From assembly GCF_010728725.1 (NCBI RefSeq), contig NZ_AP022606.1, forward strand, positions 4,402,001 to 4,466,000: a stretch of 64,000 nucleotides of DNA, given 5' to 3'. The stretch comes from Mycobacterium branderi. Lineage in GTDB: Bacteria; Actinomycetota; Actinomycetes; Mycobacteriales; Mycobacteriaceae. Position 1 is the first letter of the stretch, and each line of letters starts with the position of its first letter. Positions 13,093 to 19,762 of the stretch are shown piece after piece. A model generated the notes under the pieces. That model made no database searches and had not been told where the DNA came from. It saw only the letters and a program-made list of their open reading frames with translations. Made by a program: the position numbers and the translations under genes.

Positions 13093-14070
13093 ATGCACGC
13101 AATCGAAGTCGCCGAAACCGGCGGACCCGAAGTCCTGCGTTACGTCGACAAACCGCGGCCTTCTCCCGCGGCCGGTGAGGTGTTGATCAAGGCCGAAGCG
13201 ATCGGCGTCAACTTCATCGACACCTATTTCCGGTCTGGGCAATACCCCCGCGAGTTGCCGTTCATCCTGGGCAGCGAGGTGGCCGGCAGGGTGGCCGCAG
13301 TGGGCGACGGCGTGGCGGCGCTCGCGGTCGACGACCGGGTGGTGACCGCCGCCGCGTCGGGTGCCTATGCCGAATTCTGCTCCGCGCCAGCCGATTTAGT
13401 TGCTCAGGTGCCTGCGGCGGTGGATTTCGACGTGGCAGCCTCAGCGCTGCTGAAGGGCATGACCGCGCACTACCTGCTCAAGTCGGTTTATCCGGTGCAG
13501 CCCGGGGACACCGTGCTGGTTCATGCCGGGGCAGGTGGCGTTGGTCTGATTCTGACGCAGTGGGCCACCAGTTTGGGGGTACGGGTGATCACGACGGTGT
13601 CTACGCCGGCCAAGGCCGAGTTGTCCCGGCAAGCCGGCGCCACCGACGTATTGGACTATCCTGGCGACGACGCCGACGAATTCGGCAGGCGGATACGGGA
13701 ATTGACCGACGGCGCAGGTGTGGCCGCGGTGTACGACGGGGTCGGGGCCAGCACTTTCGATGCCAGCCTGGCCAGCCTCGCCGTGCGGGGAACGTTGGCG
13801 CTGTTCGGCGCGGCAAGCGGACCTGTTCCGCCGGTCGATCCGCAGCGGCTCAACGCCGCCGGCTCGGTGTATTTGACCCGGCCGATGCTGGCCCATTTCA
13901 CCCGCACCGCTCAGGAATTCGCTTGGCGCTCAGAGGAGTTGTTCGACGCGATTGCCGCGGGCTCGATCAGCGTGACGGTCAGCGGCCGCTATCCGCTGGC
14001 CGACGCTGCTCAAGCACACCGAGACCTGCAGGGCCGCAAGACCGTCGGCTCGGTCGTGCTAGTGCCCTAG
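13093..14070 (+). CDS. qor: NADPH:quinone oxidoreductase (zeta-crystallin type)
   Basis: 325 residues, medium-chain dehydrogenase/reductase without the zinc site. The NADPH motif is [14 protein letters not shown] and the substrate-side motif [12 protein letters not shown] is typical of quinone reductases. Reduces quinones with NADPH. The ATG at 13093 gives the usual N-terminus ([15 protein letters not shown]). Counterpart of Rv1454c. It converges on the first PPE gene; both stops are read from the same four bases CTAG at 14067-14070. Confidence 0.93.
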
Positions 14071-15527
14071 CGTGGTTCACTGTCGTGCTCCCAGCTCCCT
14101 GGCAGCATCGGAGTCCTTGGGCCGGCAGCCAACTCATCAATCTCCAGCGTCGTCAACCCCGCGGCCCGCTCGACGGCATCGCTACGCACCGTCCCGGCGA
14201 AACCCAACGGCCCGGCCCCCTGCTCGGAGGCCATCGTCGGGCCGTCCCAGTCCGGGTCGAGCTCGACGTTCATATCCATGTACTTGTCGCCGCTCTCCGA
14301 CTGTCTCGTCCGCCGGCGACGACGCGCCCGCGCCTGCTCCCGCGCCGCCGACCCCGCGGCAGCCGCGGCCGAATCAGACTCCGGCGCCTTGCGTTTCGCA
14401 CTGGAGCTCGCACCGGTACTCATCCCCGACCCGACACCGATACCGGGCGGACCCACCACATAAGGCGGGAAAAACCCAGCCGCACCCGCAGCCGGCGGAG
14501 CGGGCGGTGCCGCCGAACCAGCGGCCGTGCTCACCGTCGCAGTAGCCGCGGGCGCCGGCGCCGTCGCAAAGGTTCCTGCAGGAGCAGCCGCCGTCGGGGC
14601 TACCCCAATTGCCGCCAACACATTCGGGGCCACCGCAACCGGCGCCGGCACCGGCGCGACCGCGGGCTGAGCCGATGCGGCCAATCCCGCCAACCCCGCC
14701 AGGCCGGCGAACGGACCAAGGCCGGCAATGACCAGGCCAAGAGCCGGCCCCATCAGCACCGGGGCGAACTGGAGCACGGTGGAGAGCAGCTGGCTCGCGT
14801 GGAATGCCAGGTCGGCCAGCACCATCGGAAGATCGGTCAGCAGCGCAGCCGGGTTGGTGAGTAGATCGTTCAGCAGAAGCTGACCGTATCGAGCCATCTC
14901 GCCGCCTACATCGATCCACCACTCTGGATCGGTGGGGCTCAGCTCGCCGTCATGAATCCCATCATCGCCGTGGTCATGGCCGCTGTGGTCGTGATCGAGG
15001 ATTTGCGGTGCGGTGGTGGTTTGTGGTGTCGACGCCACTGCGGTGTCCGAGACGGCCTGATAAGTGCTCATCGTGGTGGCGGCCTGAACCCACATCCGCG
15101 CGTAGTCGGCCTCGTTGAGCGCGATCGGAATCGTGTTGATACCAAAGAAATTCGTCGCCACCAACACCGTATGCACCGCATGATTAGCCGCCAACCCGCC
15201 CAGCGTCGGCATCGCCGCCAGCGCGGCGGTATACGCCCCCGCCACACTCTCATGCGCAGCAGCCGCCGCAGCACTGTCAGCACTGGCCTGACTCAGCCAC
15301 GCCAGATACGGCGCATGCGCCCCCACATACGCCTCGGCGGTCGGACCCTCCCACGCCCCGCCATGCACCGACGCCAACAACGCGCTCAGTTCCTCTGCCA
15401 CAGAAGCGTATTCAGAACTCAGCGACGACCACGTACCCGCCGCCGCCAACAACGGCCCCGGCCCCGGACCACTACTGAGCAACGCCGAATGCACCTCCGG
15501 CGGCGATGCCATCCACACCGGCGCCAT
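14067..15527 (-). CDS. PPE family protein, PPE-PPW subgroup, with His/Asp-rich segment
   Basis: 486 residues from ATG 15527. The N-terminal ~170 residues are the PPE domain (SPPEVHS, then the WEG turn [12 protein letters not shown]). The C-terminus has the PPE-PPW motifs GFAGT and PMLPGSW, preceded by a basic stretch RARRRRR. Residues about 177-192 read [16 protein letters not shown], a likely divalent metal-binding segment not present in the other two PPE proteins here. The first 526 bases are a near copy of the PPE gene at 16300. It is coupled to a truncated PE reading frame upstream through TGATG. Probably exported by an ESX system with a PE partner, but its own PE is broken. Confidence 0.9.
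14951..15001 (-). other. His/Asp-rich coding segment in the first PPE gene
   Basis: Codons for [17 protein letters not shown], with five His and six Asp in 17 residues, placed exactly where the near-identical copy shared with the neighbouring PPE gene ends. Such runs commonly bind Zn, Ni or Co; that function is inferred here. Confidence 0.7.
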
Positions 15528-15530
15528 CAC
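15004..15530 (-). repeat. PPE duplication, copy 1 (5' half of PPE gene)
   Basis: Matches 17336-17862 at an offset of 2332 bases with only three mismatches that I can find over about 527 bases, including at third codon positions. The match stops abruptly at the end of the PPE domain. Confidence 0.92.
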
Positions 15531-15616
15531 GATCGGCCGCCGGCGATCGAGCACGACGACAGCGCAGCGGCCGCCCGTCGCGCGGCCAGGATTTCACGCA
15601 CGACGCGCAGCGTCAT
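15527..15616 (-). pseudogene. PE family remnant (internally deleted, 29 codons)
   Basis: A frame starting MTLRVV and ending IAGGRS, that is the first and last pieces of a PE protein joined by a deletion of roughly 220 bases when compared with the intact PE at 17865. It keeps the PE ribosome-binding site (AAAGGAG eight bases before ATG 15616) and its TGA overlaps the next ATG (TGATG), so it could still be translated as a short leader coupling to the PPE. M. tuberculosis annotates a similarly tiny PE27A next to esxR, as I recall, so the truncation may be old and shared. Confidence 0.75.
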
Positions 15617-15709
15617 GCCAGATACTCCTTTCATTGTCTTCATCCCCCGTCGATACTTGCCTCACGGGAGCCGCCAGCTACAGCCGAATCTTGGTCGCTG
15701 ATAGGCTAT

Positions 15710-16000
15710 TTAGCCGCCCCATTTGGCGGCTTCGGCTTGGTCGCGGGCCAGCATCGAGACGGTGTTGGTCTCGTGCGTGCCGGCCATCGCGTGATAGGCC
15801 CGCACCAGATCGGCCATCGCCTGATTCCACTGCACCTGCCACGCCTGATAGGTCATCCCGGTATCGCCCTGCCACGCCGCCGACAACGCCGCCTGCTCGG
15901 ACGCGATATCCGCCCCCAACCCCTGCATCGTGGCCGCATAGGAGGCCATGTCCCCGGCATGCACCAGCATCGCCGGATAGTTGTACATAATCTGCGACAT
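15710..16000 (-). CDS. esxH: ESX-3-type WXG100 protein, EsxH/EsxR-like
   Basis: 96 residues, exactly the length of EsxH (TB10.4), with the WQGD turn of the WXG100 helical hairpin. It forms a 1:1 dimer with the EsxG-like protein and is secreted by ESX-3, a system tied to iron and zinc acquisition. H14, H70, H76 and E77, the residues reported as the zinc site of EsxG-EsxH, are all conserved. The ATG overlaps the esxG stop (TGATG). The local gene order PE-PPE-EsxG-EsxH-PE-PPE resembles the M. tuberculosis PE29-PPE47-esxS-esxR-PE27A-PPE46 group more than the ESX-3 locus itself, so esxR could be the better name. Confidence 0.93.
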
Positions 16001-16296
16001 CAGAAACCTCCCGTGTACGTCGACGCGGCCGCGGCATCGGCGGCCACATAGGTACCCGCCGCATCACCCAAATTGGCCTGCGCGACATCCAGCAGCGCAT
16101 TCACCTTCGCCGCCACCTCCACAAACCGGGCATGCGCGGCCTGAAACGCCGCCGCCGACTCCCCCACATGAAACGCCTGCGCCGACACCGCCTCCTGCTC
16201 GGCCTGACCGATCGTCGAGCGCATCAACCCCGCCTTAGCCGCAAACGCCGACTGCGACGCCACCAACTGCGGAATATGAGCATCCAACAAACTCAT
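16000..16296 (-). CDS. esxG: ESX-3-type WXG100 partner protein, EsxG/EsxS-like
   Basis: 98 residues, starting [18 protein letters not shown] as in EsxG. The family's WXG is replaced by SAAAF, as is usual for EsxG-type partners. It pairs with the EsxH-like protein, and the C-terminal TYTGGF end is typical. ATG 16296 is chosen over an adjacent GTG because it gives the standard N-terminus; GAGGAAAGGAAG in the PPE 3' end is the ribosome-binding site. It follows the PPE stop by three bases. EsxS is the alternative name. Confidence 0.92.
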
Positions 16297-16299
16297 CAC

Positions 16300-17859
16300 T
16301 TACTTCCTTTCCTCATCAACCACCCAACTACCCGGCACCATGGGAACCCTTGGGCCACCACCGAACTCATCACCACCCAACCTCGCCAACCCCCGCTCCA
16401 CAGCATCACCACGCACCGTCCCGGCAAAACCCAACGGCCCCGCCCCCTGCTCCGAGGCCACCGTCGGCCCGTCCCAGTCCGGGTCGAGCTCGACGTTCAT
16501 ATCCATGTACTTGTCGCCGCTCTCCGACTGCTTCGCCCGCCGGCGACGACGCGCCCGCGCCTGCTCCCGCGACCCTGCCGCCGCGGCAGCCGCCGCCGAA
16601 TCAGACTCCGGCGCCTTGCGTTTCGCACTGGAGCTGGCACTGGTAGGCATCCCCGACCCGACACCAATACCCGGCGGACCCACCACATAAGGGGGAAGAA
16701 AGCCCGTACCACCGGCGGGCGGCGGCGATCCCGGCAGCGGCGATGGACTGCCCGCCGTGCTCGCAGTGGCCGTGGGTGCGGGCGCCGGTGCGGTCGCAGG
16801 GGCCGCCGCGGCGGGCGCGGCCACCGTCGGAGCTATTGCGATGGCCGGCAGCGGGATGGGCATCGCGACCACCGGTGCGGGTGCCGGCGCAGGGGGCGCT
16901 GGCAGCCCGGCCAGGCCCGCCAACCCGGCGAAGCCACCTATTGCTCCGAAGGGCGCAATCGCGAAGATGGCGCCGGCCGCCAGCAACTCCGGCTGGGTTC
17001 CCAAAAACCCGGCTATCTGTGCGATATGGGTTGGCCAGTCGAACATCTCGAGCGCAACCAGATACTGAAAAGCCAACGCCGGATTTGTCTGGAGGTATAC
17101 GAAAAACTGTTGAAAATCCTCAAACAGTTCGAGGGCACGAACCACCCAGTAGATCGGTTGCCCCGGGTTGGTGTAGGCGTCGTAGGGCAGGCCGTTCACG
17201 GTGCCCTGAGCGGGGTTCCAATTGATCCCGAAGTTCTTCAGGACGTTCGCAATGAGATCGTCTAGCGGGTTGTCCACCGTTGGGTCGGGGAAGGGGTTTC
17301 CGGAGTCTTGGGTTGAGGCGTCGGACTTCTGAATCTGCGGTGCGGTGGTGGTTTGTGGTGTCGACGCCACTGCGGTGTCCGAGACGGCCTGATAAGTGCT
17401 CATCGTGGTGGCGGCCTGAACCCACATCCGCGCGTAGTCGGCCTCGTTGAGCGCGATCGGAATCGTGTTGATACCAAAGAAATTCGTCGCCACCAACACC
17501 GTATGCACCGCATGATTAGCCGCCAACCCGCCCAGCGTCGGCATCGCCGCCAGCGCGGCGGTATACGCCCCCGCCACACTCTCATGCGCAGCAGCCGCCG
17601 CAGCACTGTCAGCACTGGCCTGACTCAGCCACGCCAGATACGGCGCATGCGCCCCCACATACGCCTCGGCGGTCGGACCCTCCCACGCCCCGCCATGCAC
17701 CGACGCCAACAACGCGCCGAGTTCCTCTGCCACAGAAGCGTATTCAGAACTCAGCGACGACCACGTACCCGCCGCCGCCAACAACGGCCCCGGCCCCGGA
17801 CCACTACTGAGCAACGCCGAATGCACCTCCGGCGGCGAAGCCATCCACACCGGCGCCAT
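16300..17859 (-). CDS. PPE family protein, PPE-PPW subgroup (PPE4/PPE47-like)
   Basis: 519 residues. PPE domain in the first ~175 residues, then an about 200-residue variable middle with low-complexity Ala/Pro stretches, then the conserved end with RARRRRR, the [16 protein letters not shown] block, GFAGT and PMVPGSW. It should pair with the PE protein encoded directly upstream and be exported with EsxG/EsxH. The PE stop is five bases before ATG 17859, and a GTG one codon earlier is a possible alternative. Its first 527 bases are 99% identical to the PPE gene at 14067, its last ~300 bases about 90% identical, and the middle is unrelated. Confidence 0.92.
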
Positions 17860-17862
17860 CAC
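17336..17862 (-). repeat. PPE duplication, copy 2 (5' half of PPE gene)
   Basis: Partner of 15004-15530, same orientation, about three mismatches. A direct repeat of this length and identity only 1.8 kb away could recombine and delete the EsxG/EsxH genes between. Confidence 0.92.
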
Positions 17863-17864
17863 CG

Positions 17865-18173
17865 TCAGCCGCCGGCGATCCCATACGACGCCGCGGCGGC
17901 CGCGTCTTTGGCGGCGTAGCCGGCACCGGACTCGGCGACACCGACGCCGGCCCGACCCAATTCCTGCACACCGCTCGCCACCACCGCGGCATGTTCGCCG
18001 CCCCGCACGCTGAGTCCGGCGGCGCTCTGCAGCGACACCGGGTCAGCGGCGGGAGGCACCACCGCGGAGATCACCGGTGCCGCGCCGGCATGGGCGGCCG
18101 CCAACCGGGCGGTCAACGCTTCGACAGCCGCACTTGCCGCGGCCAGGCCTTCGGGCACCACACGCAACGTCAT
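17865..18173 (-). CDS. PE family protein (PE5/PE29-like)
   Basis: 102 residues, starting [20 protein letters not shown] with the PE motif at positions 7-8, and containing the ESX export signal YxxxD/E-like element near the end ([17 protein letters not shown]). No PGRS or other C-terminal domain. Heterodimer partner of the PPE downstream. ATG 18173 has GAGGAG eight bases upstream; an in-frame upstream ATG lies next to the Zur palindrome and is rejected. First gene of the Zur-marked transcript. Confidence 0.92.
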
Positions 18174-18198
18174 GCCGGCAACTCCTCGCACGCTCAAC

Positions 18199-18219
18199 TA
18201 ATGAACATGATTTTCATTA
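18199..18219 (-). promoter_or_regulatory. Zur-type zinc-repressor box upstream of PE-PPE-EsxG-EsxH
   Basis: A 21-base palindrome with arms TAATGAACAT and ATTTTCATTA around a central G (plus strand); only one arm position mismatches. The core TGAAAAT-C-ATGTTCA on the minus strand fits actinobacterial Zur boxes (TGAAAAT-N-ATTTTCA). It lies 26 bases upstream of the PE start and next to a GATAAT -10 candidate. In M. tuberculosis Zur controls both ESX-3 and the esxS/esxR group, as I recall. Confidence 0.8.
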
Positions 18220-18286: not shown

Positions 18287-19762
18287 TTACCGGTGATCGG
18301 CCTGGTCGGGCGCCCAGCTGCCGGGCAGCATCGGCAGGGCCGGGCCGCTGCCGAACCCGTCGCCGGCCAAGGTGGTCAGCCCGGCCGCCGCGGCAGCCGT
18401 TTTGGTGCGTATCGCGCCCGCGAAACCGACCGGCCCGGCACCTTGATCCGAGGCAACCGTCGACGTGCCGGGCCCGGCCCAGTCCGGCTCGACCTCGACG
18501 TTCATCTCCATGAACTCGTCGCCGTGCCCGCGCAGCCCGGCTCGCCGGCGTCGCCTCGCCCGCTTGTGCTCCCGCGCGGCTGTCGCGGCCGCCGCGGCGG
18601 CGTCGGGCTCCGGGGCCTTCCTCCTGGCACCTGCACGGTCGCTGGCGCTCATGCCGGAGTCGAATCCGATGCCGGGAGGCCCGACGAGGTAGGGAGCAGC
18701 GAAACTTGCGGCGGCCGGGGCAGGCGGTGCCGCCGGTGCACTGGCGGCGGTGACCGAGCTGGGCGCCGGCGTCGATGCGGTGGTCGTCGCCGGGGCCGGC
18801 ACCGTCGGCGCAACCGACGGCGACAGCCCGGCGGCCGGCAACGTCTTGGACGGAGCCGGCGCGGATACCGCGTGGGGTGCCGTCGCAGCGGCCGGTTGAG
18901 GCATGCCCGCCAAGCCGGCCAGCGCGGCGAAACCCCCTGCGAATCCGGCGTTGACGGCAGTGAGACCGACTGCGGCCGCGATCAGTTCCGGTTGGAACGC
19001 ATTGATGAACTCGCCCAGGTGACCGATTTCGTCGGCGATGAGTGCCGGGATATCGCTTTCCAGCTGCGATAGCGCCGCGGCGGGATTGGACGGAAACTCC
19101 GCGAAGTCCCTGCCGAGGGTGTCGGTGATTTCCGTGACCCGATTGACGTACCAACTCGGGTCGTACGGGTTGCCGCCGTCGTTGTCGATGATGTCCTGGG
19201 TACCGCCGTTGTTGGTGCTGTCGGATTTCTGGATCTGCGGCGCCGGCGCGGTACTGGGTGTCGACGCCACCGCGCTACCTGCGACGGCCTGGTAGGTGGT
19301 CATCGTGACGGCCGCCTGCACCCACATCCGGGCATAGTCGGCCTCGTTGAGCGCAATCGGAATCGTGTTGACACCAAAGAAATTCGTCGCCAACAACACC
19401 GCATGCATTGCATGGTTGGCCGCCAACTCGGCCAGCGTCGGCATCGCGGCCAGCGCCGCGGTGTAGGCCGCAGCCGCAATCTCGTGCTGGGCCGCCGCTG
19501 CTGCGCTGTCGGCGCTGGCCTGCGTCAGCCACGCCACATACGGCACATGCGCCGCCACGTACGACTCCGCGCTGGGCCCCTGCCATGCCGCGCCCTGCAC
19601 ATTGGCGAGCAGCGCGGTGAGTTCGTCGGCAACCGAGGCGTACTCAGCGCTCAAAGACGACCACGCGGCGGCGGCAGCCAACAACGACCCCGGTCCGGGA
19701 CCGCTGCTCAGCAACGCCGAATGCACCTCCGGCGGTGAAGCCATCCAGACCGGCGCCGTCAT
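18287..19762 (-). CDS. PPE family protein, PPE-PPW subgroup
   Basis: 491 residues, starting [20 protein letters not shown]. The PPE domain is clearly related to, but not copied from, the other two (many differences). Its end keeps PMLPGSW, while the first PPW motif is GFAGA rather than GFxGT. The basic segment is HKRARRRRR. It lies 45 bases downstream of ctaB on the same strand with no good ribosome-binding site visible, and upstream of the Zur box, so it is not part of the zinc-marked transcript and has no PE partner of its own. Confidence 0.9.

Follow-up and report, generated by a model that had tools for sequence, protein, structure and literature searches.

A cassette of PE, PPE, and esxG-esxH genes lying between ctaB and qor in a 64,000-nucleotide stretch of Mycobacterium branderi NZ_AP022606.1 (the window, to whose positions coordinates refer unless another locus is named) is very probably a satellite of the ESX-3 secretion system, consisting of a PE-PPE pair, an EsxG-EsxH carrier, and an extra PPE, which would be repressed by Zur as one unit and whose products are likely exported by ESX-3. 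This reading is drawn from sequence: the gene content, a box of the Zur type directly before the PE gene, the conservation of that box in relatives, a separate ESX-3 core in the same genome, and the contrasting histories of the PE and esxGH genes.

RESULTS

Gene content of the cassette

The features between and including the flanking genes are as follows, with the names qor and ctaB taken from a first-pass annotation of this DNA.

18199-18219, strand not assigned: predicted Zur box, a near-palindrome of 21 bases that ends 25 bases ahead of PE
17865-18173, minus strand: PE, 102 amino acids (aa) (PF00934, E 1.1e-17)
16300-17859, minus strand: PPEa, 519 aa, PPE domain and PPE-PPW C-terminus (PF00823, PF18878)
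16000-16296, minus strand: EsxG-like WXG100 protein, 98 aa (EsxG 2kg7_A, E 1.9e-46; EsxS 3h6p_A, E 7.4e-45)
15710-16000, minus strand: EsxH-like WXG100 protein, 96 aa (EsxR 3h6p_C, E 1.9e-48; EsxH 2kg7_B, E 8.8e-48)
15527-15616, minus strand: PE remnant open reading frame (ORF), 29 codons plus stop, preceded by a Shine-Dalgarno-like AAAGGAG, its stop overlapping the PPEb start
14067-15527, minus strand: PPEb, 486 aa, first 175 residues matching PPEa except one
18287-19762, minus strand: PPEc, a third PPE, positioned between the Zur box and ctaB rather than downstream of the box
13093-14070, plus strand: qor-like flank, convergent, tail to tail with PPEb and with overlapping stop codons
19808-20887, minus strand: ctaB-like flank (longest ORF)

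Read from ctaB to qor on the minus strand, the cassette thus runs box, PE, PPEa, EsxG, EsxH, PE remnant, and PPEb, with five intact ORFs, and every part that the first-pass annotation had named on that strand is present. The short junctions that it described for most pairs were also borne out, with 5 bases between PE and PPEa, 3 bases between PPEa and EsxG, and one-base overlaps at EsxG/EsxH and remnant/PPEb; the sole long gap is the 93 bases from EsxH to the remnant. PPEc does not appear in that description and, by its position, lies outside the control of the box. The unit contains no ESX machine genes, as the annotation stated; the ORFs lying between ctaB and qor account for the cassette, and an ESX-3 core sits elsewhere in the genome.

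A well-supported Zur box before the PE gene

The arms of the box (TAATGAACATGATTTTCATTA) are complementary at 9 of 10 positions, and the near-perfect 21-base palindrome reported in the first-pass annotation therefore stands, with its distance to the PE start corrected from 26 to 25 bases. Read on the minus strand (TAATGAAAATCATGTTCATTA), the site has, by eye, the same base at 19 of 21 positions as the M. tuberculosis Zur DNA binding box (TATTGAAAATCATTTTCATTA), differing at 2, according to excerpts of PMC2660348, in which Zur also shifts a fragment of the rv0282 (eccA3) promoter in an electrophoretic mobility shift assay. Compared by eye with the Zur consensus in an excerpt of PMC7174638, it matches 20 of 24 positions; of the four that miss, one is in the core and three are outer positions.

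A chance palindrome was rejected on three grounds. With up to three mismatches to the 15-base core pattern allowed, 0.18 sites would be expected per window and two were found, the box with one mismatch and another site with three. Across the whole 5.98-Mb genome, five sites have two mismatches or fewer, the box being the only one with a single mismatch, and a reversed control gave none. Finally, a scoring matrix trained on 58 boxes, from which the window genome and eight fetched loci with ctaB-site boxes were excluded, gave the box 43.7 of a possible 46.9, as against 4.2 for the next-best site in the window.

The exact pattern AATGAAAATSATKTTCA was found in 58 of 248 genomes of the genus, and its reversed control in 0 of the 248. 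The surroundings of all 67 exact sites in the 57 other genomes were fetched, with queries for CobW, ZnuA/B/C, PE-PPE, and melibiase taken from genes adjoining the boxes and family names from Pfam. As many as 65 sites lie no more than 400 bases before eccA3 (25 sites), PE/PPE genes (19, six of them ctaB-site cassettes), CobW or ZnuA/B/C genes (19), or genes for PE-PPE-domain proteins (2); one precedes a melibiase-like gene and one nothing recognised. According to excerpts of PMC7174638, mycobacteria induce ZnuABC, CobW-like proteins, and ESX-3 when Zur is lost or zinc is withheld. Judged by its sequence, the identification of 18199-18219 as a Zur box is well supported. As a separate observation, the exact boxes before the melibiase-like gene and the PE-PPE-domain proteins (L130:9831; L170:9907; L175:9876) mark possible further Zur targets.

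Conservation at the ctaB-qor site

Eighty named ctaB loci were fetched, and the cassettes of relatives were located among them through CtaB, without use of the box. PE-PPE genes follow ctaB in six of the 80 (M. celatum, M. sp. MFM001, two M. kyorinense strains, M. shimoidei, and the metagenome-assembled genome [MAG] Actino1), and EsxG is seen in five of these, the M. celatum contig ending before it. All six carry the 18-mer TAATGAAAATCATGTTCA before PE, and the palindrome is thus conserved in relatives that have the cassette, a point on which the first-pass annotation had staked its proposal. Two more genomes, G147 and G188, which were located through the box search, have the cassette between ctaB and qor with the 18-mer present. 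In a 110-base upstream alignment of all nine, window included, the 18-mer is invariant along with just six other single columns. A box with two mismatches or fewer occurs in 9 of the 80 ctaB loci and its reversed control in none. The same box also stands at this site before PPE genes in two Mycolicibacter loci (L087 and L095) and in G022, with no EsxGH match between ctaB and qor, so the switch there precedes PPE alone. In other species ctaB and qor lie close together, with match ends 2 bases apart in L040, for example. For M. tuberculosis, the first-pass annotation places PE_PGRS genes at this position.

A quick tree of transketolase and CtaB with a midpoint root (84 loci entered and 81 kept, those with a transketolase match below 600 residues being dropped), which does not fix the deep order within the slow-growing side, placed the nine rows with cassette and box in two clades on that side (Shimodaira-Hasegawa-like approximate likelihood ratio test supports of 95 and 98). 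Cassette and box are found in all 6 rows of the celatum/kyorinense/shimoidei clade and in 3 of 4 of the other. Recent insertion in the window species alone was rejected, as the arrangement is common to a clade.

Promoter partition among the EsxGH loci

The genome has four close EsxH copies, located in the ESX-3 core (L012), the window, L011, and L013, and thus consists, in this respect, of a core and three satellite cassettes. The core lies at G000:C1, about 1,114,000-1,127,000, with EccA, EccC, EspG, and EccD. L011 was rejected as the core locus, as it sits between dTMP kinase and adenosylhomocysteinase genes. The ESX-3 type assigned to the cassette in the first-pass annotation agrees with this separate core and with the matches of its EsxG and EsxH to EsxG/H and EsxS/R chains; its EsxH is 99% identical to the core copy, and the best solved chain for PPEa is PPE4 (6uuj, E 5.6e-71).

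The promoters of these loci are partitioned. The core has an IdeR-like site, with 5 mismatches to an IdeR consensus, together with a weak Zur-like box (score 23.7) about 150 bases before eccA3 (L012:15974-15994); the ctaB-site copy has a strong Zur box alone, the only box among the satellites, and L011 and L013 have neither a Zur-like box nor an IdeR-like site before PE. Control of the cassette by iron through IdeR was rejected, the best site before it having 10 mismatches in 19 positions as against 5 before eccA3. The 700 bases ahead of PE were also scored in 11 satellites fetched from other sites in nine genomes, a sample of those existing in which the PE starts of G221 and G091 are placed approximately; none has anything comparable to the ctaB-site box, the highest score being 2.7. 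Separately, in G073, G149, and G022 (L198, L199, L208, L209) an EsxGH block stands directly before eccA3-eccB3-eccC3, and G073 has this arrangement twice, which looks like a duplication of much of ESX-3.

Contrasting evolution of esxGH and PE

The esxG-esxH block (15707-16320, minus strand) is 98.2% identical to the core copy over 609 bases, 97.5% identical to L013 over 605 bases, and 94.2% identical to L011 over 777 bases; the tract shared in the window spans 15707/15712 to 16311/16320 for two of the copies and extends further for L011. Four loci each were compared in the window genome (window, L011, L012, L013) and MFM001 (L018, L190, L191, L192). In 8 of 8 cases PE is closest to its same-site counterpart in the other genome (90-93%, with other loci at 70-76%), the cassette PE being 90% identical to that of MFM001. 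The adjoining esxGH is, again in 8 of 8, closest to another copy in its own genome (95.7-99.8%, with same-site counterparts at 92.8-93.8%). The esxG-esxH block is homogenised within each of the two genomes, and the PE genes stay locus-specific. Gene conversion among the esx genes of M. tuberculosis was reportedly described by Uplekar in 2011; a literature search turned up no description of the split PE/esxGH pattern for esxGH satellites, which is no proof that it is unpublished. In the draft assemblies of M. kyorinense, M. shimoidei, and a MAG, contigs (L019, L021, L024, L027, L200-L206) stop inside esxG or esxH, as expected because several near-identical copies defeat short reads.

Loss of the second PE and the two PPEs

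Among the fetched loci, a PPE follows EsxH in four genomes (window, MFM001, G147, and G188), and in none of the four does an intact PE lie between. By eye, the window retains a 29-codon ORF with the first and last codons kept and the middle lost, MFM001 a six-codon PE start running into the PPE, G147 a C-terminal piece, and G188 nothing recognisable. Beyond the start codon, PPEa and PPEb are mismatched at only three of the first 521 bases, leaving 174 of 175 residues equal; beyond these near-identical stretches (17336-17859 and 15004-15527), DNA identity falls to 63%. As the corresponding domains are only 86% identical in MFM001, the overwrite between PPEa and PPEb in the window looks recent. 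Given that the two PPE domains are set apart by a single residue in 175, both may be served by one PE, which would be the simplest reading. The window and MFM001 have the second PPE; M. kyorinense E861 and M. shimoidei lack it, and there the EsxH end runs straight into qor; its presence varies on the tree, suggesting gain or loss more than once.

DISCUSSION

Proposed regulation and export

The genome has three PF01475 matches, and a Fur-family gene (130 aa) lies behind an ArsR/SmtB-like gene with a 4-base overlap; we call its product Zur because of the SmtB-like neighbour. Zur control of the cassette, as proposed in the first-pass annotation, is supported on four counts: the 19 of 21 positions in common with the M. 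tuberculosis box (PMC2660348, in excerpt), the exact pattern before CobW/ZnuABC/eccA3 genes in other mycobacteria, the unchanged 18-mer in six of six related cassettes located without it, and the smtB-zur-like gene pair in the same genome. The part of that proposal concerning binding and induction we infer from these. Where zinc is plentiful, Zur would occupy 18199-18219 and keep the unit off; where zinc is scarce, Zur would be released and the cassette expressed, presumably as a single transcript from the Zur-controlled promoter. Iron starvation is probably not needed, because no IdeR-like site was seen before the cassette. The products would most likely leave the cell through the ESX-3 machine encoded far away in the genome, with the EsxG/H type and the PPE domain as recognition features, and both PPEs could probably use the one intact PE as partner. 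An esxH mutant of M. tuberculosis fails at PE5 secretion, and esxG/H/Q/R/S are Zur-dependent in that species according to excerpts of PMC2660348. In zinc-limited M. tuberculosis, the ESX-3 cluster is the lowest-expressed of the Zur-regulated genes, which PMC8121289 explains by dual control through Zur and IdeR; a satellite under Zur alone would escape this restraint.

Several points weigh against this interpretation. For this organism it is built from sequence. The 130-aa Fur-family protein gets no name from any NCBIfam model above cut-off, and no sigma-70-type promoter turned up between 13900 and 19900 in a consensus scan, a method possibly ill suited to promoters of mycobacteria. Two of the nine boxes compared, those of G147 and G188, were located by the pattern search itself and do not test conservation independently. 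The genome has four EccD genes, so export by another ESX system is possible. The 23 exact-match eccA3 boxes, which were picked as exact matches and belong to the matrix training set, score 40.2-46.9 as against 23.7 in the window genome, and with so weak an eccA3 box the ESX-3 machine here may respond less to zinc. Other observations either count against the interpretation or merely stand beside it: the window esxGH shows the same identity (95.2%) to L192 of MFM001 as to the L011 copy in its own genome, indicating that homogenisation is incomplete; in eight PPE-only ctaB loci (L025, L031, L033, L035, L041, L075, L086, L090) no site comes within one mismatch, L025 having one two-mismatch site; and two-mismatch sites at three other places in the window genome (L003, L004, L005) have no zinc gene nearby by eye.

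The palindrome could be the operator of another Fur-family or unrelated repressor, FurA-like or PerR-like for instance, and the cassette would then respond to iron or oxidative stress instead of zinc. Boxes of the Fur family look alike, and the three PF01475 matches supply candidates for such a role. We nevertheless consider it very unlikely, given that the exact pattern precedes CobW and ZnuABC genes and nearly equals the printed Zur box, and that the best IdeR-like site before the cassette is so much poorer than that before eccA3. A decaying relic, its promoter recognisable and its products without function, would account for the PE remnant, for the overwriting of the PPEb domain by PPEa sequence or the reverse, and for the absence of the second PPE in two relatives, and the near-identity of the esxGH copies means that one locus could carry the load. 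Set against the five intact ORFs, an 18-mer unchanged between differing flanks in all six relatives found without it, a PE still 90% identical to its MFM001 counterpart, and PE-PPE genes kept in two clades, decay seems highly improbable. It is also conceivable, if rather unlikely, that the cassette is under Zur and yet serves mainly to raise the dosage of EsxG-EsxH for ESX-3 overall, with PE and PPE as passengers. The near-identity of esxGH to the core copy fits this idea, but L087, L095, and G022 carry the box and PPE genes at this site without an EsxGH match. We therefore continue to favour a Zur-repressed ESX-3 satellite.

ESX-3 is linked with iron as well as with zinc. Because the satellite has a switch for zinc but, by our scan, none for iron, and the core has both, the two loci offer a natural comparison of which substrates serve which metal. 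The opposite histories of PE and esxGH likewise open to testing the idea that the EsxG-EsxH carrier is common to all copies and that specificity of the load lies with PE/PPE. We tentatively suggest, as one possibility that is short of the likeliest outcome, a single ESX-3 machine with interchangeable metal-specific loads, in which the EsxGH copies would be kept alike by gene conversion to fit one channel, each with its own PE/PPE and promoter. The ctaB-site PE, PPEa, and PPEb might then be the zinc-specific load, perhaps a component of zinc uptake at the outer membrane, with one PE serving two PPEs that differ in their middles.

Comparison with known systems

M. tuberculosis has a cassette of the same kind, Rv3022A-Rv3017c (PE29-PPE48/47-esxS-esxR-PE27A-PPE46-esxQ), which was duplicated from ESX-3. 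Its order, which we take to be PE-PPE-EsxG-type-EsxH-type-(damaged PE)-PPE, is that of the cassette here; it presumably occupies a different chromosomal site and has esxQ, for which no counterpart was seen in the cassette. Excerpts of PMC1660551 list the pairs Rv3022A/Rv3021-22c and Rv3018A/Rv3018c as region 3 duplicates and record that PE27A lost its N-terminal region, whereas the second PE in the window lost its middle and kept its ends. The esxQ/R/S genes are among those described as Zur-dependent (PMC2660348, in excerpt). The cassette thus has the marks of a satellite, with PE-PPE followed by EsxG/EsxH types, no machine genes and a core elsewhere, and a damaged PE before the second PPE (for M. 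tuberculosis, PMC1660551, in excerpt), and by sequence those of a Zur regulon member, with a box at the promoter and a Fur-family repressor gene named by its SmtB-like context.

The ESX-3 core (eccA3...pe5-ppe4-esxG-esxH-espG3-eccD3) contains the same PE-PPE-EsxG-EsxH block, but the cassette has neither machine genes nor an IdeR-like site, and its strong Zur box stands directly before PE, where the core has a weak one before eccA3. In M. avium paratuberculosis, zinc starvation induces the ESX-3 cluster MAP3778-3788, for which a Zur box is predicted at -236 of MAP3778, according to an excerpt of PMC4298942; unlike the satellite here, this cluster is a core locus. The kind of cassette is therefore known from M. 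tuberculosis (esxR/S/Q), and what is new is its site, its conservation there, the partition of promoters among the EsxGH loci, and the split evolution of PE and esxGH.

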